Source of the DNA: Balneola sp.
GTDB lineage: Bacteria; Bacteroidota; Rhodothermia; Balneolales; Balneolaceae
Reading direction: 5' to 3'
DNA: 64,000 bases
NCBI GenBank assembly: GCA_002696035.1
Contig: NZQV01000010.1
Span: 496,001-560,000 of the forward strand
Of the stretch, positions 42,102-51,276 are shown piece after piece. A model generated the notes under the pieces. The model was not told the origin of the DNA, did no database searches, and saw only the letters and a program-made list of their open reading frames with translations. Positions within the stretch are counted from its first letter, which is position 1, and each line of letters begins with the position of its first letter. The position numbers and the translations under genes were made by a program.

Positions 42102-42899
42102 TTAGTTTCCAAATTTCAGTGAATGAACGAAGGAAAATAACTCAGATTGCCAGCCCTCGTTCGGATAATGATTTTTGATGGTATCAATTAAGGCACTTCC
42201 CACAATAAATCCATCGGCATTTGATGCGATATTTTGAGCATCGTTATGGGTTTTGATGCCAAAGCCAACCATCACCGGATTTTGGGTGATATTACTGCGA
42301 ACCCGTTCAATAAAACGAGAAACCGACTTTGAAACTTCATCCCCGTCCCGGGCTCCGGTTACCCCGGTTACGGAAACGCAATATACAAATCCCTGAGAGT
42401 TTTCATCGGCCAGCTTCATGCGGGAATCGGAAGTATTTGGGGCTACAAGGTGGATGACATCAAGGTTATTTGTAGCTGCATGTTCTTTGATGATGCCGTC
42501 TTCTTCCAGTGGAATATCCGGAATTATAAGTCCATCAACGCCGGCCTCTGCTGCTTTTTGGGTGAATGCCGAAACTCCATATCGAAGCACCGGATTCATA
42601 TAGCCCATCAAAATGATGGGGATCTCAGACTGTTTCCGAACTTCCTTCACCATCTCAAAGATCTTGTTCATGGTGATGCCATTTTGAATGGCCACATCAC
42701 TTGAATGTTGAATGGTAGGTCCATCGGCCAGAGGATCGCTGAAGGGCATTCCCAATTCAATGATATCGGCTCCGTTTTCTTCAAATCCCAAAATGAGATC
42801 CACGGTCGATTCCATATCAGGATATCCGGCAGTGATGAACAAGCTCATCAGCTTCTCATCGGCTTTCTTGTTGTTAAATACGTTTTGAATTCGGTTCAT
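42102..42899 (-). CDS. trpA: Tryptophan synthase alpha subunit
   Basis: A 265-aa TIM-barrel subunit that cleaves indole-3-glycerol phosphate to indole. Hallmarks: LFITAGYPD, the catalytic Glu in DIIELGMPFSDPLADGPTIQ, the catalytic Asp in DGLIIPDIPLEE, and the phosphate site VMVGFGIKTHNDAQNIASNADGFIVGSALI. Complete length. It is the last trp gene, separated from trpB by 149 nt, an unusual gap for this pair, which often overlaps. Confidence 0.97.
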   Translation of the reverse strand: MNRIQNVFNNKKADEKLMSLFITAGYPDMESTVDLILGFEENGADIIELGMPFSDPLADGPTIQHSSDVAIQNGITMNKIFEMVKEVRKQSEIPIILMGYMNPVLRYGVSAFTQKAAEAGVDGLIIPDIPLEEDGIIKEHAATNNLDVIHLVAPNTSDSRMKLADENSQGFVYCVSVTGVTGARDGDEVSKSVSRFIERVRSNITQNPVMVGFGIKTHNDAQNIASNADGFIVGSALIDTIKNHYPNEGWQSELFSFVHSLKFGN

Positions 42900-43048: not shown

Positions 43049-44266
43049 CTAATCGTTATCTCGAATGTAGTCTGATATGGTACCCATATCTTTGTCTCCC
43101 CGGCCGGATAGGTTTATCATCACAATTTCATCTTCCGAAGTTTCCGGCATCAGGTCTTCAAGCCAGGCAAACGCATGAGCGGTTTCAAGAGCCGGAATGA
43201 TGCCTTCTGTTTTTGAGAGTAACTTCACAGCATCCATAGCTTCTTCGTCGGTCACTGCGTGATATTGAACCCTGCCCAGATCTTTCAAATGAGCATGTTC
43301 AGGTCCTACACCGGGATAATCCAATCCTGCACTGATGGAATGGGCCAGCTCGATCTGACCTTCATCACTTTGTAATAAATAACTCAGCGATCCGTGCAAA
43401 ATTCCGGGTGTGCCTTTACTCATTGTGGCGGCTGTTTTGCCTGAATCTACTCCAAATCCGGCAGCTTCAATACCGATGATCTTTACTGCTTCATCTTCAA
43501 TAAAAGGATAGAAAAACCCAATGGCATTTGAGCCTCCGCCTACACAAGCTAACAGGTAATCTGGATTGCGACCCTCGTAATGTTGAATTTGTTCTTTTGC
43601 CTCATTCCCGATCACTTCATGGAAATGACGAACCATCATGGGATATGGATGAGGTCCAACTACGGAACCGATAATATAAAAGGTCGTGTCGACATTGGTC
43701 ACCCAGTCGCGGATAGCTTCATTGGTAGCATCTTTTAAAGTTTTGGAACCGCTCGTCACGTTCCGTACTTCAGCTCCCAATAACCGCATTCGGTCAACAT
43801 TTAGCTTCTGGCGCACCATATCCTCCTCGCCCATGTACACGATGCATTCCAATCCAAACTTTGCACAGGCGGTCGCTGTCGCCACACCATGCTGACCAGC
43901 ACCGGTTTCAGCGATGATGCGCTTTTTGCCCATTCGTCGGGCCAGCAAAACCTGCCCAATGGCATTGTTGATCTTATGAGCTCCGGTATGGCACAGGTCT
44001 TCACGCTTTAGGTAGATCTTAGCCTTACCGTAGTGCTCGGTAAGACGATTGGCAAACGTAAGTTTTGTGGGGCGACCTACATATTCATCCAGTAGTTCAG
44101 CCAATTCAGCATTAAACTCCGGATCTACTTTTGCTTTGTTGAATTCTGCTTCTAATTCCTGAATGGCAGGGATCAAAATTTCAGGAACGAATTTCCCGCC
44201 AAACTGACCATAATAGCCACGTTCGTCAGGGAAATTGTAAGTTGCTGTCTTAGTTTGTGTGTTCAT
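43049..44266 (-). CDS. trpB: Tryptophan synthase beta subunit
   Basis: A 405-aa PLP enzyme condensing indole with serine. Typical segments: [32 protein letters not shown] with the PLP lysine, [39 protein letters not shown] (phosphate loop) and [10 protein letters not shown]. TrpB1-type length. It follows trpF after a 99-nt gap occupied by an interspersed repeat. Confidence 0.98.
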
Positions 44267-44283
44267 AATGAATACTTACGATA

Positions 44284-44357
44284 GTCATCCTGAGGGTACT
44301 CCCGAAGATCTTCACAAGTCGAACAAGTGAAGGTTCTTCGCTATCGCTCAGAATGAC
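44284..44357. repeat. 74-bp palindromic interspersed repeat between trpF and trpB
   Basis: Terminal inverted repeats GTCATCCTGAG (44284-44294) and CTCAGAATGAC (44347-44357) match at 10 of 11 positions, with an inner CTTCAC/GTGAAG palindrome. The GTCATYCTGAGCG...GAAG design is familiar from intergenic repeats of Bacteroidota. It fills most of the 99-nt gap inside the trp operon. Confidence 0.75.
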
Positions 44358-44365
44358 GTTAGGAT

Positions 44366-45016
44366 TTAATTTTCTTCTAATGCTCTGATCTCATCCATAA
44401 AGGATTCGATCTTACCAAAGTCTTTGAGTCCTGGTTTCTGCTCTAAACTGCTGGAGACATCTACCGCATAAGGTTGAACCGTTTCAATAGCTTCTTTGAT
44501 GTTTTCTGCCTTCAATCCACCAGAAAGAAAGAACGGAATATCAACATCCAGATCGGTGATCATCGACCAGTCAAAGCTCTTGCCTGTTCCTCCCCACAGT
44601 CCGTCGATCTTGGTATCAAATAGCAGGTAATCGGCTACATCGGCATACTGCTGGATCTGATGCTTCAACAAATAATCCACTGATTCTTCTTCAATGTGAA
44701 TGACTTTTATGATCGGCTTATCTACCAACTCACAGTATTCTGGAGATTCATCTCCGTGAAGCTGCACGTAATCGAGTCCGGTTTGTCTTGCGATGCTATT
44801 CACATCATCTATGGGTTGATTTACAAAAACGCCGACTTTTTCAGGCCCTTCGATCCAGTTGATGATAGCTCCGGCTTCCCCCGGCTCAATATAACGTGGA
44901 GATGGCTCATAAAAGATAAAGCCGAGGTAATCCACTAAAGCTCCGGCTGCAAACCGGGCATCTTCCAGGTTGGTGATCCCGCAAATTTTGATTTTCGTTC
45001 TTTCTTTATCAGTCAT
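44366..45016 (-). CDS. trpF: Phosphoribosylanthranilate isomerase
   Basis: A 216-aa TIM-barrel enzyme converting PRA to CdRP in tryptophan synthesis. The catalytic cysteine lies in KIKICGIT near the N-terminus; YVQLHGDESPEYC, DYLLFDTKIDGLWGGTG and FFLSGGLKAENI follow, and the C-terminal DVSSSLEQKPGLKDFGKI holds the end of the active site. It overlaps trpC by 8 nt. The two are separate genes here, unlike the E. coli fusion. Confidence 0.96.
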   Translation of the reverse strand: MTDKERTKIKICGITNLEDARFAAGALVDYLGFIFYEPSPRYIEPGEAGAIINWIEGPEKVGVFVNQPIDDVNSIARQTGLDYVQLHGDESPEYCELVDKPIIKVIHIEEESVDYLLKHQIQQYADVADYLLFDTKIDGLWGGTGKSFDWSMITDLDVDIPFFLSGGLKAENIKEAIETVQPYAVDVSSSLEQKPGLKDFGKIESFMDEIRALEEN

Positions 45017-45827
45017 TCGCTAATAGCTTTTCAAATTCTTCTTCCGATTGCTCCAGCAGGTCTCTTACAGCCTGCCCCGGATCTTCTTGCCGCATAAAAT
45101 GTTCGCCGATCAGTGCGGAGTGAATGCCTTTTTGCTTCAATAAAGCGAGGTCTTTGCCTGTTGAGAGCCCGCTTTCAGAAACCAAAACCGTCTCCTCAGG
45201 CGCCTGCTGCAGAATGGAAATGCCCCGATGCACATCCACATCAAATTTCTTCAGATCCCTGTTATTGACGCCCAGAATATCTGTAAGCTCAAAATCTAGT
45301 CGATCAAAATCATCCTGATCGTAGCACTCAACCAAAGCATCCAATCCAAATTCTTTAGCTGCGTGTTGAAGTTCCTGAAGTTGTTTTCCTTCTGTAATGG
45401 CTACAATAATTAGCACGGAATCGGCCCCATAAGCCCGAGCTTCCTTGATCTGATAGGGATCGATGATAAAATCTTTCCGGAGCAGCGGCAATTCGACTCG
45501 CCTGGAAATTGCTTCAAGGTATTTGAGGTCACCCTTAAAAAAAGGTTCATCCGTTAGTACTGAAATTGCGGAAGCCCCTCCTTCTTCATATCTCAGAGCA
45601 ATATCAACCGGATCAAAATCTGGACGAATAATACCTTTGGACGGGGAAGCTTTCTTTACTTCGGAAATGATGGAAACAGCTTCATTTCCGGCCAAAGCCT
45701 CTCTGAATGAAATACGCTCTTTCTCAAATCCTTCAAAAGAATTGAAATCTGAAAAAGACACCTTTTGCTTGCGCTTGGCAAGGTCTTGGGCTGTTTGTTC
45801 TGTTATCTTTTCTAAAATATTACTCAT
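45009..45827 (-). CDS. trpC: Indole-3-glycerol phosphate synthase
   Basis: A 272-aa TIM barrel closing the indole ring of CdRP. Visible landmarks: IISEVKKASPSKGIIR with the catalytic lysine, FFKGDLKYLEAI, PLLRKDFIIDPYQI, VECYDQDDFD, ILGVNNRDLKKF, LVSESGLSTGKDL and ALIGEHFMRQEDP. Length is typical for a monofunctional enzyme. It overlaps trpF and abuts trpD (one shared base at start/stop). Confidence 0.97.
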   Translation of the reverse strand: MSNILEKITEQTAQDLAKRKQKVSFSDFNSFEGFEKERISFREALAGNEAVSIISEVKKASPSKGIIRPDFDPVDIALRYEEGGASAISVLTDEPFFKGDLKYLEAISRRVELPLLRKDFIIDPYQIKEARAYGADSVLIIVAITEGKQLQELQHAAKEFGLDALVECYDQDDFDRLDFELTDILGVNNRDLKKFDVDVHRGISILQQAPEETVLVSESGLSTGKDLALLKQKGIHSALIGEHFMRQEDPGQAVRDLLEQSEEEFEKLLAND

Positions 45828-46867
45828 TAGTACTTGAACGTCCCCATAGCGTCGTTTGTAGCATCTACAAAGTCATTGAACAGTTTGCGGGCTTTACCTG
45901 ATTCCAGGGCATCTTCAGCCAATTCCTTCCCTTCTTCCAAAGTCTCAACTTTACCGGAAGCCTGAATAGCAAAAGCCGCATTCAGCAGCGCTATATTCTG
46001 CTGGGCTTCTGTGCCCTCATTGGCCATGATAGCCGTTAAGATCTTAGCATTTTCTTCTTTTCCGCCCCCCATAAGATCATCCATTTTAACTTTCTGGAAG
46101 CCAATGGATTCCGGCTCGAATATAATAGAAGTGGAAACTACGCTGTCCTTCAATTCGAAGATCTCAGATTGTGAAGTCAGGCTTACCTCGTCAAGGCCAT
46201 CATGGGCGTTGAAAGTGTAGGCAAAATCAGTTCCGAGATTAGAAAGAATATGCACCATTTTCTCAGCTACTTGTTTGCTGAAGGCGCCGATCACATACCG
46301 TTGTACGCCGGCCGGATTCACCATGGGGCCAAGAATATTAAAAAATGTACGGAACCCCAGTTCCCGCCTGGCAGGCATTACATGTTTCATGGCAGGGTGA
46401 AACATAGGCGCAAACATAAAGGCCATTCCTACTTCATCAAAAACCTGTTCCACGCCCTCTTTTCCAAGCTCGATGGAAGCTCCCAAATACTCTAAAACAT
46501 CTGCGCTGCCGCATTTACTGGAGGCACTTCGGTTTCCGTGCTTAATAACCGGAACTCCAGCCGCCGCTGTAATAAAGGAAGCCGAAGTGGAAATATTAAA
46601 GGTTCCGGATTGATCTCCGCCGGTTCCTACGAGATCGATGGCTCCGGTGACATCCACATCCACCTTAACGGCTTTAGAGCGCATTACTTTTACGAAAGCG
46701 GTAAGCTCTTCCACCGTTTCACCTTTTAACCGCATGGCCGTTAAAAAAGCAGCGATCTTAGGTTCGGAAATCTCGCCGGACATGATCAGGTTCATCGCCG
46801 TTTCAGCCTCAATTTCGGTTAGATCTTCAGAAAACGAGAGTTTATTCAGAATACTTTTGAAATCCAT
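45827..46867 (-). CDS. trpD: Anthranilate phosphoribosyltransferase
   Basis: A 346-aa type III phosphoribosyltransferase joining anthranilate to PRPP. The glycine-rich loop LVGTGGDQSGTFNIST, the HGNRSASSKCGSADVLE segment and the C-terminal half are all present. It is a single-function protein, not fused to trpG. Its ATG shares a base with the trpG stop, suggesting coupled translation. Confidence 0.97.
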   Translation of the reverse strand: MDFKSILNKLSFSEDLTEIEAETAMNLIMSGEISEPKIAAFLTAMRLKGETVEELTAFVKVMRSKAVKVDVDVTGAIDLVGTGGDQSGTFNISTSASFITAAAGVPVIKHGNRSASSKCGSADVLEYLGASIELGKEGVEQVFDEVGMAFMFAPMFHPAMKHVMPARRELGFRTFFNILGPMVNPAGVQRYVIGAFSKQVAEKMVHILSNLGTDFAYTFNAHDGLDEVSLTSQSEIFELKDSVVSTSIIFEPESIGFQKVKMDDLMGGGKEENAKILTAIMANEGTEAQQNIALLNAAFAIQASGKVETLEEGKELAEDALESGKARKLFNDFVDATNDAMGTFKY

Positions 46868-47430
46868 TATTGTCGTAACCAGTTTTGAATGATTTTGGGT
46901 CCTTCTATTGTAAGAATACTTTCGGGGTGAAATTGAATTCCCTGGATCGGAAATTCTTTGTGGCGCACGCCCTGTATCACCCCGTCATCAGAATGAGCAG
47001 TAATTTGAAGTACATTGGGAATGGTATCAGGATCTAAAATTAAAGAATGATATCGGGTTGCGGTGAAGTCTTTCTCGATCCCTTTAAATATAAATGTATC
47101 ATCATGTGAAACCTGCGAAACTTTGCCATGCATTAGTTTAGGAGCATGTACAACTTTTGCACCAAACACTTCACCAATGGCTTGGTGACCTAAACAAACT
47201 CCAAGTATAGGCGTCTGTTTACCGAGTTCACGAATGATCTCCTCAGTGATTCCGGCTTCGTGTGGACGTCCCGGTCCGGGCGAGATCAGGATCTTTGATG
47301 GGTTGAGTTCCCGGACCTCATCCAGCGTCATGGCATCGTTGCGGATCACTTTATAGTCATCCGTTTCTGCCGCGACCAAATGAACGAGGTTATAGGTAAA
47401 GGAGTCGTAGTTGTCAATAATAAGGATCAC
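46867..47430 (-). CDS. trpG: Anthranilate synthase component II (glutamine amidotransferase)
   Basis: A 187-aa class I glutamine amidotransferase supplying ammonia to TrpE. The nucleophile is in GVCLGHQAIGEVFG; the catalytic His-Glu lies in FHPESILT; the N-terminal IDNYDSFTYNLVH is standard. The start codon is a GTG at 47430 with no clear ribosome site. It may also serve folate synthesis as PabA, as in many bacteria, but its place between trpS and trpD supports the Trp role. A 128-nt gap separates it from trpS. Confidence 0.95.
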   Translation of the reverse strand: MILIIDNYDSFTYNLVHLVAAETDDYKVIRNDAMTLDEVRELNPSKILISPGPGRPHEAGITEEIIRELGKQTPILGVCLGHQAIGEVFGAKVVHAPKLMHGKVSQVSHDDTFIFKGIEKDFTATRYHSLILDPDTIPNVLQITAHSDDGVIQGVRHKEFPIQGIQFHPESILTIEGPKIIQNWLRQ

Positions 47431-47558: not shown

Positions 47559-48548
47559 CTAAGATCTGTGATTCACAATGCCGGTTACTTCACGGATCGG
47601 TTGCATGACTTCTTCGGCGCGTTTACGAGCTATTTTACTTCCTTCGCGAAGAACATCATGAACGTAGTCAAGATCTTTAACCAATTCATGTCGTCGCTCG
47701 CGGGCTTCACCAAAATAATCCTCTATCATGCCTAAGAGTTCCTTTTTAGCATGACCATAGCCATATCCGCCTGCACGATATTTACCGGCGATCTCATCCT
47801 GAGTTTCCTTATCTGCAAAAAGCTTGATGAGGGCAAATACATTATCCGTTTCCGGGTCTTTGGGATCTTCAAGGGCCGTTGAGTCCGTTTGAATGGACAT
47901 TACGCGTTTCTTCAATGCCTTCCCTTCTGCAAAAATATTGATCGTGTTGTCGTAACTCTTGCTCATCTTGCGTCCGTCGATGCCCGGAACTACAGCTACG
48001 GATTTCACAATATGCTCTTCGGGAATTTTGAGGAATTCTCCTTCGTATGCATAATTAAACTTTCCGGCCAAGTCGCGGGTGATCTCAATATTCTGCTTTT
48101 GATCTTCTCCAACCGGTACAATATCAGAATGATATATAAGAATGTCTGCTGCTTGTAGTATTGGATAGGTAAAGAGGCCAATGTTGGGATTCAGCCCGGC
48201 TGCGATCTTATCTTTGTAGGAAACGCCCTTTTCCATCATGGAAACCGGGGTCAATGTTCCAAGTATCCAAGCCAGTTCTGTCACTTGAGGAACATCGGAT
48301 TGAGCAAAGAAAGTTGCTTTTTTAGGATCTAAGCCAAGCGCAAGGTAATCCAGAGTCACATCGATCGTATTCTGTCGAAGTTGTTCTCCGTCATTCAAAG
48401 AGGTCAGAGAGTGATAATTGGCGATGAAATAAAACGCCTCTCCCTCCGACTGCATAGCTATATGTTGACGAATGGCACCAAAATAATTTCCGATGTGTAA
48501 TTTTCCGGAAGGCTGAATGCCTGAAAGTATCGTTTTAGTTTTGCTCAT
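47559..48548 (-). CDS. trpS: Tryptophanyl-tRNA synthetase, inside the trp operon
   Basis: A 329-aa class I aminoacyl-tRNA synthetase charging tRNA-Trp. The HIGH-type motif is GKLHIGNYFGAI, the KMSKS motif is GRKMSKSYDNTI, and GVSYKDKIAAGLNPNIGLFTYPILQAADIL is characteristic. It lies between trpE and trpG on the same strand, so it should be transcribed with them, downstream of the leader attenuator. No separate promoter is obvious in the 158-nt gap before it, which is largely palindromic repeat. Confidence 0.96.
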   Translation of the reverse strand: MSKTKTILSGIQPSGKLHIGNYFGAIRQHIAMQSEGEAFYFIANYHSLTSLNDGEQLRQNTIDVTLDYLALGLDPKKATFFAQSDVPQVTELAWILGTLTPVSMMEKGVSYKDKIAAGLNPNIGLFTYPILQAADILIYHSDIVPVGEDQKQNIEITRDLAGKFNYAYEGEFLKIPEEHIVKSVAVVPGIDGRKMSKSYDNTINIFAEGKALKKRVMSIQTDSTALEDPKDPETDNVFALIKLFADKETQDEIAGKYRAGGYGYGHAKKELLGMIEDYFGEARERRHELVKDLDYVHDVLREGSKIARKRAEEVMQPIREVTGIVNHRS

Positions 48549-48594
48549 TGATCTGTTTTATCGAGTCTTTTGTTAATTCAATTTCGAGGTAAGC

Positions 48595-48692
48595 AACCTC
48601 GCAGCGTCTTATAAGACTTGCGAGCGTTGCGGGTAAAAGCGTTCTAAATTGAAATTCGAACGCTGCGAGGACCGTTGGACGCTCGCAGGTTC
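48595..48692. repeat. Two palindromic repeat units in the trpE-trpS gap
   Basis: The first unit (about 48595-48632) is a hairpin built on the perfect palindrome GTCTTATAAGAC with flanking CTCGCA/TGCGAG arms. The second (about 48660-48692) has GCTGCGAGG and GCTCGCAGG words from the same family. Both are non-coding and lie between two co-transcribed genes, so any stem would form in the trp mRNA. Confidence 0.65.
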
Positions 48693-48706
48693 TGCCATAA
48701 TTAATT

Positions 48707-50167
48707 TCATTGTATATCCAACGCTACGCTGAGCGCCTGAATGAGTGCGCCTGCTTTATTTTGGGTTTCTTCGAATTCCTTTGTGGGATCGCTGTCGGCC
48801 ACGATTCCTGCTCCGGCCTGAATATAGGCTTTGTTATCCGTCACAACCATAGTTCGAATAGCAATACAAGTATCCATGTTGCCCGAAAAATCAAAATAGC
48901 CAACAGCACCGGCATAGGTGCCACGCTTGGTGGGCTCGAGTTCATCAATGATCTCCATAGCTTTGATCTTAGGAGCCCCGCTTACGGTTCCGGCCGGGAA
49001 ACACTGCATAAGTGCGTCCACTGAGGTTTGATCATCCTGCAATTCCCCAACTACATCACTTACAATATGCATAACATGCGAGTAACGCTCTATCACCTGG
49101 TTTCGCTCCATTTTTACCGTACCGGGCTTGCAAACCCTGGAGAGATCATTCCTTCCCAGATCTACCAACATAATGTGTTCAGCTACTTCCTTGGGATCGT
49201 TTTTGAGATCTTCTTCCAATGCGAGATCTTCCTCGTGGGTTTTTCCCCGGGGACGTGTTCCGGCAATAGGCAACACTCTCGTCTCGCCCTCCTGCACACG
49301 AACCAGTACTTCCGGGGATGAGCCGACAAGTTGAAAATCCTCAAAATCCAGATAGAATAAATACGGAGATGGATTCACCATGCGAAGCGCACGATAGAGC
49401 ATAAAAGGATCGCCGCTCATATCGGCTTCAAACCGCTGGGAAAGAACCACCTGGAAAATGTCACCTTCATATATGTACTCTTTGCCCTTCTTCACGATCT
49501 TCTCAAAATAATCCTGTTCCATATTACTTGAGAGCGATTCCGTATCAATACTAAAGGGCCGGTTTTGATAATTGGAATCCAGCGCGGCCGATTCCATTTC
49601 ATCCAGGCTCTTCTGTGCCTTATTGTAGGCTTCATTCAGATCCTCTTCCTCTTCCACAAAAACCGTTTTGATCAACACCACCTGATGCTTCACATGATCG
49701 AAAGCGAAGATCTCATCATAAAAAGCCCAAATGGCTTCGGGGAGATTCAGGTCGTCTTCGGGCACATCCGGCAGATCTTCCACTAATCGAAAAGTGTCAT
49801 AAGCGGAAAATCCCACAGCGCCGCCTTTTAATCTCGGAAGTTCAGGTAGCGTTGGCTCCGAATAAGCGGTGGTAAGTTCCCTGAGTTTATCGAAGTAGGA
49901 AGCTTCAATTTGTTGAGGATCATCATTTTGGGAAAGTGTGGTTTCCTTTCCATCAAACTTAAGAATTTGATAGGGATTCCGGCCAATGAAAGAATAACGG
50001 GCCAGCTGCTCGCCGCCTTCAACCGATTCCAGCAAGAACGGATACTTTGCTCCCTCCCGGATGTTCATAAACAGAGAAACGGGTGTCAGCACATCAGCCA
50101 GCAATCTCCGATATACCGGAACCGCTGTATATTCTTTACTGAGTCTTAAAAATTGATCTTTATTCAT
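48707..50167 (-). CDS. trpE: Anthranilate synthase component I
   Basis: A 486-aa chorismate-using enzyme that starts tryptophan synthesis. The feedback-inhibition motif LLES occurs in PFLLESVEGGEQLARYSF. Catalytic segments are DIFQVVLSQRFEAD, SPYLFYLDFEDFQLVGSSPEVLVRV, VLPIAGTRPRGKTHEED, HIMLVDLGRNDLSRVC and FPAGTVSGAPKIKAMEII. It begins 43 nt downstream of the attenuator's T-run. It is the first structural gene of the operon. Confidence 0.97.
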   Translation of the reverse strand: MNKDQFLRLSKEYTAVPVYRRLLADVLTPVSLFMNIREGAKYPFLLESVEGGEQLARYSFIGRNPYQILKFDGKETTLSQNDDPQQIEASYFDKLRELTTAYSEPTLPELPRLKGGAVGFSAYDTFRLVEDLPDVPEDDLNLPEAIWAFYDEIFAFDHVKHQVVLIKTVFVEEEEDLNEAYNKAQKSLDEMESAALDSNYQNRPFSIDTESLSSNMEQDYFEKIVKKGKEYIYEGDIFQVVLSQRFEADMSGDPFMLYRALRMVNPSPYLFYLDFEDFQLVGSSPEVLVRVQEGETRVLPIAGTRPRGKTHEEDLALEEDLKNDPKEVAEHIMLVDLGRNDLSRVCKPGTVKMERNQVIERYSHVMHIVSDVVGELQDDQTSVDALMQCFPAGTVSGAPKIKAMEIIDELEPTKRGTYAGAVGYFDFSGNMDTCIAIRTMVVTDNKAYIQAGAGIVADSDPTKEFEETQNKAGALIQALSVALDIQ

Positions 50168-50210: not shown

Positions 50211-50246
50211 AAAAAAACCCACCATTCGGAGGAACAGTGGGTTTTT
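50211..50246 (-). terminator. trp attenuator terminator (3:4 stem)
   Basis: On the minus strand the arms are AAAAACCCAC (50237-50246) and GTGGGTTTTT (50213-50222), perfectly complementary, with a 14-nt loop and a run of seven T (50211-50217). It sits between the leader ORF stop and trpE. Its 5' arm overlaps CCCACTGTT (50233-50241), which can instead pair with the leader (see the antiterminator entry). Confidence 0.93.
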
Positions 50247-50308
50247 CTTTAAAAGTCTTTGTCAATTGCTCAATTACGTAGCAGTCCCACTGTTATGTTC
50301 TATAACAG
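50233..50308 (-). promoter_or_regulatory. trp attenuator: mutually exclusive 1:2 and 2:3 stems
   Basis: Read on the minus strand, segment 1 CTGTTAT (50302-50308) pairs perfectly with segment 2 ATAACAG (50290-50296). Segment 2 also reads AACAGTGGG (50286-50294), an exact complement of segment 3 CCCACTGTT (50233-50241). Segment 3 is part of the terminator's 5' arm. Segment 1 starts one base after the Trp codons, so a ribosome stalled there masks segment 1, frees segment 2 for segment 3 and prevents termination. One that reaches the stop codon covers segment 2 and lets the terminator form. Confidence 0.92.
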
Positions 50309-50348
50309 GCCACCACCAATTGTTGTTTTGAGCAAATTCGTTTTTCAT
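50274..50348 (-). CDS. trpL: trp operon leader peptide with three adjacent Trp codons
   Basis: A 24-codon ORF, ATG at 50348, TAA at 50274-50276. It begins MKNEFAQNNN, then has three consecutive UGG codons (residues 11-13, 50310-50318) followed by a Pro codon and ten more residues. Trp is rare, so three in a row in a leader of this length is a strong attenuation signature. It lies 106 nt upstream of trpE and overlaps the 1:2 stem. There is no Shine-Dalgarno-like site in front of the ATG. It is too short to be a functional protein; translation itself is the signal. Confidence 0.93.
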   Translation of the reverse strand: MKNEFAQNNNWWWPVIEHNSGTAT

Positions 50349-50355
50349 AACGCGA

Positions 50356-50386
50356 CGAATATAAAAGGCTCACTCAGTACATGCAA
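50356..50386 (-). promoter_or_regulatory. Candidate trp promoter (Bacteroidota -33/-7 type)
   Basis: Minus strand: TTG (50384-50386) and TATATTCG (50356-50363), one mismatch from the TAnnTTTG -7 consensus, 20 nt apart. Transcription would start around 50350, almost on the leader ATG, so the leader peptide might be translated from a very short or leaderless 5' end. This is a motif match only. Confidence 0.4.
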
Positions 50387-50478: not shown

Positions 50479-51276
50479 TTGAGTTTGAAACTCCCATTCA
50501 TCTACGGCATTATATTGCTTGTAACAGTGTCCATATTAGGGGCCTGTGATTCAACTACCGCACCTGCCGATATCCTTAAGGATTCCCCTGCTATTGTCGA
50601 ATTTGACATCTCCCCGAGCCGGGTCAATTTCACCCCAGCAGATGGAGTACGGGATACTACGGTCAACATTCAGTTTTCGGGTAGAACGTCAAATCATATA
50701 CAAGAGCAGTCTGTAATTCTGGTCATTAACAGACGGAATTCCGGAGAGCTTTTTAGAGAAGAAGAATTGGCGATAACCTCCGATGGTACTTTTGATTTTG
50801 AACTTGATGTTGAAACCAACACCACTTTCTTTAACGACTTTGAGGTTTTCACCCGGCTTTCCGGTGATAATTCGGCTTATGCAGAAGGAAAGGTTAGCAT
50901 TCAGGGATTCTCTGAATTCGCTCCTGAAATTCTGGAGATAAATAATCCTGAGTCGGTTCAGCTTCCTTCTTCCGGAGAAAGTGCGCGATCGGTATCATTC
51001 AGGGCTAAAGTTTCGGATGTAGAAGGATTAGTATCTATCGAAGGCGTTTATTTACGATTGATAAGCAGATCTACCGGAGAACTATCGGGTTCTCCATTTA
51101 GATTGTACGACAATGGCTCCAATGGAGATCTTGCCCCTAATGATTCTCTCTTTACCAGGGTATTTCAGTTTAATTCAGGCAATAACAGTGATTTTTATGA
51201 TGTCGAATATTTTGCCATTGACCGTGGCGGTTTGATCAGTGATACCTTGCGAACCACATTTAGAATTACACAATAA
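50479..51276 (+). CDS. Lipoprotein with Ig-like domains, unknown function
   Basis: A 265-aa lipoprotein with lipobox SILGAC (C23) and a beta-rich mature part that looks like two immunoglobulin-type domains (PAIVEFDISPSRVNF..., then PEILEINNPESVQLPSSGESARSVSFRAKVSD...). The end has YDVEYFAIDRGGLISDTLRTTFRI, as in bacterial Ig/cadherin-like domains. No in-frame ATG is found; it starts at a TTG (50479), with a second TTG at 50485. It ends directly before the ATG of the propeller gene and probably heads the surface cluster. Function unknown. Confidence 0.75.
   Translation: MSLKLPFIYGIILLVTVSILGACDSTTAPADILKDSPAIVEFDISPSRVNFTPADGVRDTTVNIQFSGRTSNHIQEQSVILVINRRNSGELFREEELAITSDGTFDFELDVETNTTFFNDFEVFTRLSGDNSAYAEGKVSIQGFSEFAPEILEINNPESVQLPSSGESARSVSFRAKVSDVEGLVSIEGVYLRLISRSTGELSGSPFRLYDNGSNGDLAPNDSLFTRVFQFNSGNNSDFYDVEYFAIDRGGLISDTLRTTFRITQ

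Follow-up and report, generated by a model that had tools for sequence, protein, structure and literature searches.

Anatomy of the leader region before trpE

We asked whether the stretch in front of trpE in this Balneola genome is a ribosome-mediated transcription attenuator of the trp operon, as a first-pass annotation, made from the sequence alone, had proposed. Such an attenuator is placed ahead of genes for Trp biosynthesis, carries a run of Trp codons in a short leader ORF, and combines an intrinsic terminator between the leader and the first structural gene with a 2:3 antiterminator that excludes it and a protector hairpin 1:2. In the window (the whole stretch of 64,000 nucleotides that was analysed), direct reading of the minus strand gave a leader ORF, trpL, of 24 codons plus TAA (50274..50348; ATG at 50348, stop at 50276..50274), which encodes the peptide MKNEFAQNNNWWWPVIEHNSGTAT and has three adjacent regulatory UGG codons as codons 11–13 (50310..50318). 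This frame and its Trp codons had been annotated correctly, base for base, over minus-strand positions 50348..50211. A short ORF with three adjacent Trp codons was found in one of 284 450-nt tiles of the window, namely trpL itself, and in 10 of 20,000 Markov-generated 450-nt regions (0.05%).

The pairing segments lie on the same strand. Segment 1, CTGTTAT (50308..50302), starts one base past the Trp codons and pairs with ATAACAG (50296..50290) in a perfect 7-bp 1:2 stem. ATAACAG belongs to segment 2 (50286..50296), which is located inside the leader ORF and also offers AACAGTGGG (50294..50286) for a perfect 9-bp 2:3 stem with segment 3, CCCACTGTT (50241..50233). Both stems read from the sequence exactly as first described. 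Segment 3 is at once the antiterminator partner and part of the 5' arm of a terminator hairpin, 3:4 (50211..50248, dG −19.5 kcal/mol), which stands between the leader and trpE and has a tail of seven T (50217..50211); the T-run and the position of segment 3 had been recognised before, whereas the stem, given then as 10 bp, really comprises 16–17 bp with G-U pairs. Folding of the 146-nt leader gave a stability 3.75 s.d. below that of dinucleotide shuffles, and none of 200 shuffles was equally stable.

The leader element stands 44 bp before trpE and is followed on the minus strand by a complete trp operon, identified with NCBIfam models: trpE (anthranilate synthase component I, 48707..50167; TIGR00564, 582 bits, above the cut-off), trpS (tryptophanyl-tRNA synthetase, 47559..48548; TIGR00233, 286 bits, above the cut-off), trpG (anthranilate synthase component II, 46867..47430; TIGR00566), trpD (45827..46867; TIGR01245), trpC (45009..45827; NF001377), trpF (44366..45016; NF002298), trpB (43049..44266; TIGR00263) and trpA (42102..42899; TIGR00262). 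The nearest gene upstream of the leader (50479..51276, plus strand) is divergent, so the terminator cannot serve an upstream gene; this candidate role was rejected, as no minus-strand gene ends upstream.

Conservation, covariation and alternative readings

At least two adjacent Trp codons together with a terminator were present before trpE in 64 of 68 Balneolales genomes and at 29 of 36 other loci of the class (Rhodothermia). Among named relatives (TrpE at least 60% identical), all of which are Balneolota-type (Gracilimonas, Balneola, Balneolaceae and related MAGs; L022 and L042 are labelled otherwise), each of the 37 named Balneolota loci with an intact upstream region had, before trpE, a terminator and a leader in which two to four Trp codons are adjacent. 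The best named relatives were Gracilimonas and Balneola, in line with the original assignment to a Balneolota-type genome. The first-pass annotation had also called for a check of conservation, and its expectation held: close relatives keep the Trp run, which is the most conserved part of the leader region, and all three stems, and the class as a whole keeps this run together with stems 2:3 and 3:4. Two leader geometries occur within Balneolales: in type I (42 loci, the window included) segment 2 lies within the ORF and the stop well downstream, and in type II (22 loci, e.g. WWWPIC-stop) the stop is close behind the Trp run, about where segment 2 begins. Among the exceptions were a WRW leader with terminator (L109), a locus with no recognised leader (L139), three loci apparently without a free intergenic region (L154, L168 and L178) and two loci of one Balneolaceae genus, g19 (L122 and L125), which keep the terminator hairpin before trpE and have no recognisable Trp-run leader; here the sensor may possibly have been lost.

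We then considered the pairing itself. Across 42 distinct elements with segment 2 in the ORF, 91.8% of cells in the 2:3 helix were paired, and 17 cells were double-changed compared to 2.5 expected (a number that 0 of 500 shuffles reached); when the register was shifted by 1 to 3 columns, pairing fell to 32–68%. The 3:4 helix had 63 double-changed cells compared to 22.6 expected (0 of 500 shuffles). Because relatedness inflates such shuffle counts of double changes, a second test was made in which arms were swapped between species. Native 2:3 arms had a mean of −16.8 kcal/mol, compared to −13.7 when swapped, and native 3:4 arms a mean of −19.9 compared to −14.4 kcal/mol; in neither case did any of 1000 permutations reach the native value, and the outcome for the rest of the class matched that for Balneolales. 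Some effect of relatedness persists in the swap test, too. Covariation and swapping thus both back a 2:3 antiterminator that is exclusive with the terminator, as segment 3 is common to both. As the 1:2 register slides between lineages, column-by-column covariation was replaced there by a shuffle test. For the protector hairpin, perfect over 7 bp in the window, this test gave support within Balneolales, where the mean z was −2.15 and 40 of 63 fell within the lowest 10% of the distribution from their own shuffles; it gave none in the rest of the class (mean z −0.10).

These results bear on other ways to read the locus. A stalled ribosome might act mainly via translation of trpE or via access of Rho to the leader, and not via the intrinsic terminator; leader-linked control of this kind, without an intrinsic terminator, has been described elsewhere in candidate cys leaders of mycobacteria (PMC1262725). 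However, nearly all relatives have a strong hairpin with a T-run in a similar position ahead of trpE, and covariation links the two arms of this hairpin; we regard such a route as very improbable. Still harder to credit is a leader that senses tRNA or a protein (T-box or TRAP-like) and contains a short ORF by coincidence. Systems of both types do control trp genes in Firmicutes, but a search of Rfam at the gathering score gave no match, Trp_leader and T-box included (best sub-threshold leader matches 14.6–16.3 bits), no TRAP-style repeat was seen by eye in the leader, and it is the Trp run that is best conserved; the T-box was rejected because its covariance model did not match. Finally, the hairpin might be no more than a terminator or a site of processing, with an ORF that is incidental, as suggested by how common intrinsic terminators are and by L122 and L125, where a terminator stands before trpE with no recognisable leader. 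This is scarcely believable given that no gene on the minus strand ends upstream, that ORFs of this kind are so rare in random regions, and that segment 2 covaries with segment 3.

We therefore return to ribosome-mediated attenuation of the trp operon, the reading first proposed, which is supported by the anatomy, the conserved Trp run, the covarying stems and the trp operon downstream, and which we judge to be about 95% probable. It builds on sequence anatomy, conservation, covariation and gene order, and from these we infer where transcription starts and the ribosome is positioned, and that transcription terminates and responds to Trp.

Further leaders were sought in other places. TrpE loci of other phyla in the TrpE-relative set had no such leaders, except for three Hydrogenedentota loci; single stray matches occurred at L071 and L079. 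The Hydrogenedentota loci (L048, L056 and L059) have short ORFs with HWWRR or HWWWRW runs ∼150 nt before trpE, possibly a trp leader in another phylum; at L059 there was no clear terminator and the fold was no better than shuffles. A leader-based plasmid search gave no match. A search for attenuators before hisG, ilvB, pheS and three aspartokinases of the same genome yielded one Thr-rich candidate, which lacks a T-run terminator. This Thr/Ile-rich leader candidate (L253:1307-1420, with the stretch MTMITTTTITTIITTP) stands ∼190 nt before the match to a long aspartokinase gene (an 822-aa open frame); a short hairpin overlaps its stop and is followed by no T-run.

A predicted promoter and the proposed switch

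Where would transcription of the leader start? The best predicted promoter, TTGCAT-N17-TATATT, is located within 50349-50386 of the window (minus strand), with its −35-like hexamer TTGCAT at 50381..50386 and its −10 hexamer TATATT at 50358..50363, and relatives have this arrangement at the same position ahead of their leaders. The best promoter-like site ended 6–10 nt before the ATG at 52 of 67 Balneolales loci and at 28 of 31 other loci of the class, compared to only 5 of 67 when the Balneolales sequences were shuffled. Since the predicted −10 hexamer ends 9 nt before the ATG in the window, transcription would be expected to begin 0–4 nt upstream of the ATG, which makes it probable that the leader is translated as a leaderless mRNA. 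According to a published study, Shine-Dalgarno initiation is mostly absent in the bacterium's phylum (PMC3155529).

In the proposed switch, RNA polymerase would start transcription just a few bases ahead of the leader ATG, and translation of the leader by a ribosome would follow at once. When charged tRNA-Trp is scarce, the ribosome would stall on UGG codons 11–13 and cover segment 1, so that segment 2 could pair with the emerging segment 3; the terminator would then be blocked and trpE-trpS-trpG-trpD-trpC-trpF-trpB-trpA transcribed. When Trp is plentiful, the ribosome would proceed across segment 2 as far as the stop codon (or leave, with 1:2 re-forming), so that segment 3 would remain available for pairing with segment 4; transcription would end at the T-run. 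Constrained folding behaved in this manner: when the Trp codons and segment 1 were masked, as by a ribosome, P(2:3) was 1.0 before segment 4 was made; with no ribosome, P(1:2) was 0.99 and P(3:4) was 1.0; and with the ribosome at the stop codon 3:4 formed. At equilibrium, 3:4 wins even with a stalled ribosome, so the antiterminator would have to act kinetically.

Range of trp attenuators and probable coupling to trpS

Finally, we asked how this element compares with known systems. The E. coli trpL attenuator (Rfam Trp_leader) has adjacent Trp codons, mutually exclusive 1:2, 2:3 and 3:4 stems and an intrinsic terminator before trpE, all of which recur here; it differs in that here segment 2 is inside the ORF, the mRNA is predicted to be leaderless, trpS is in the operon and the sequence matches no Rfam family. 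The element would work like the Rfam leader families but is a member of none of those sequence families. A documented precedent for a leaderless leader is trpL (rnTrpL) of Sinorhizobium meliloti, whose leader mRNA starts at the ATG and is terminated by attenuation (PMC7298713); compared with it, our element is leaderless by prediction and belongs to another phylum with another sequence. In S. meliloti, the RNA and the peptide also have trans-acting roles. In Actinobacteria (Corynebacterium, Streptomyces), leaders with double or triple UGG are known or predicted before trp operons, and S. avermitilis has a candidate attenuator before trpS2 (PMC1262725); there trpS2 has its own attenuator, whereas here a single-copy trpS is inside the trp operon behind one attenuator. 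A transcriptome paper on Flavobacterium psychrophilum, from the same superphylum, found strong clues that leader-peptide attenuators precede amino-acid operons; its main text gives no trp-specific details (PMC9723704). A paper of 2010 called leader-peptide systems unknown outside Proteobacteria and Actinobacteria before the Firmicutes case that it described (PMC2965389).

When Bacteroidota trpE loci were sampled outside the class, 18 of 34 had a leader with adjacent Trp codons, 3 more had spaced ones and 13 had none, in counts that score the Trp-codon leader by itself. Vitreschak et al. 2004 reportedly list some Bacteroidetes/Chlorobi attenuators as well. The earlier suggestion that this locus widens the known range of attenuation therefore needs toning down in view of the published precedents (PMC9723704, PMC1262725) and of roughly half of the sampled Bacteroidota loci outside the class. 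As the kind is known from Proteobacteria and Actinobacteria, with clues from Flavobacterium, and Trp-run leaders are common in Bacteroidota, attenuation here is ordinary rather than surprising. Within the open-access literature, we found no described trp attenuator from Balneolota or Rhodothermota, nor any trp operon under attenuation that includes trpS. Most deserving of further work are the proposed coupling to trpS and the probably leaderless leader; trpS in the operon and the conserved promoter before the leader were both absent from the first-pass annotation.

No TrpRS match besides the trpS of the operon occurs in the genome of the window, and nearly all other genomes likewise have one match. 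In Balneolales, it comes next after trpE in every locus that reaches far enough, and trpG follows in nearly all loci that extend beyond trpS; in the other genomes of the class, trpS lies at most 1 kb downstream of trpE on the same strand in 30 of 34 (linkage was scored at window positions 47559-48548 and at L002-L042, L083-L111 and L229-L243). In contrast, the gene order behind trpE differs in four sampled Bacteroidota genomes outside the class (L244-L247), which have trpE-trpG-trpD-trpC without trpS. Co-transcription of trpS with trpE is suggested by this gene order; the gaps in the window are 158 nt before trpS and 128 nt before trpG, and internal promoters may be present before either gene. 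The trpE-trpS (48549-48706) and trpF-trpB (44267-44365) intergenic stretches have a palindromic, REP-like look by eye, and in Balneola the trpE-trpS gap is near zero.

The attenuator thus probably also controls the cell's only tryptophan-charging enzyme, and, since the operon includes the sole trpS, the switch would increase the supply of Trp as well as the capacity for charging. With some reservation, we favour the view that in Rhodothermia one leaderless trp attenuator, old and class-wide, reads charged tRNA-Trp and controls both Trp synthesis and the sole tryptophanyl-tRNA synthetase. The analysis adds a well-supported, class-wide set of trp attenuators that is absent from Rfam and whose leader ORFs escape ordinary annotation. 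If the broader view is true, the sensor feeds back on its own signal via substrate and enzyme together, and the linked single-copy trpS with its probably leaderless leader would offer a simple, testable case of a charging sensor that controls its charging enzyme.
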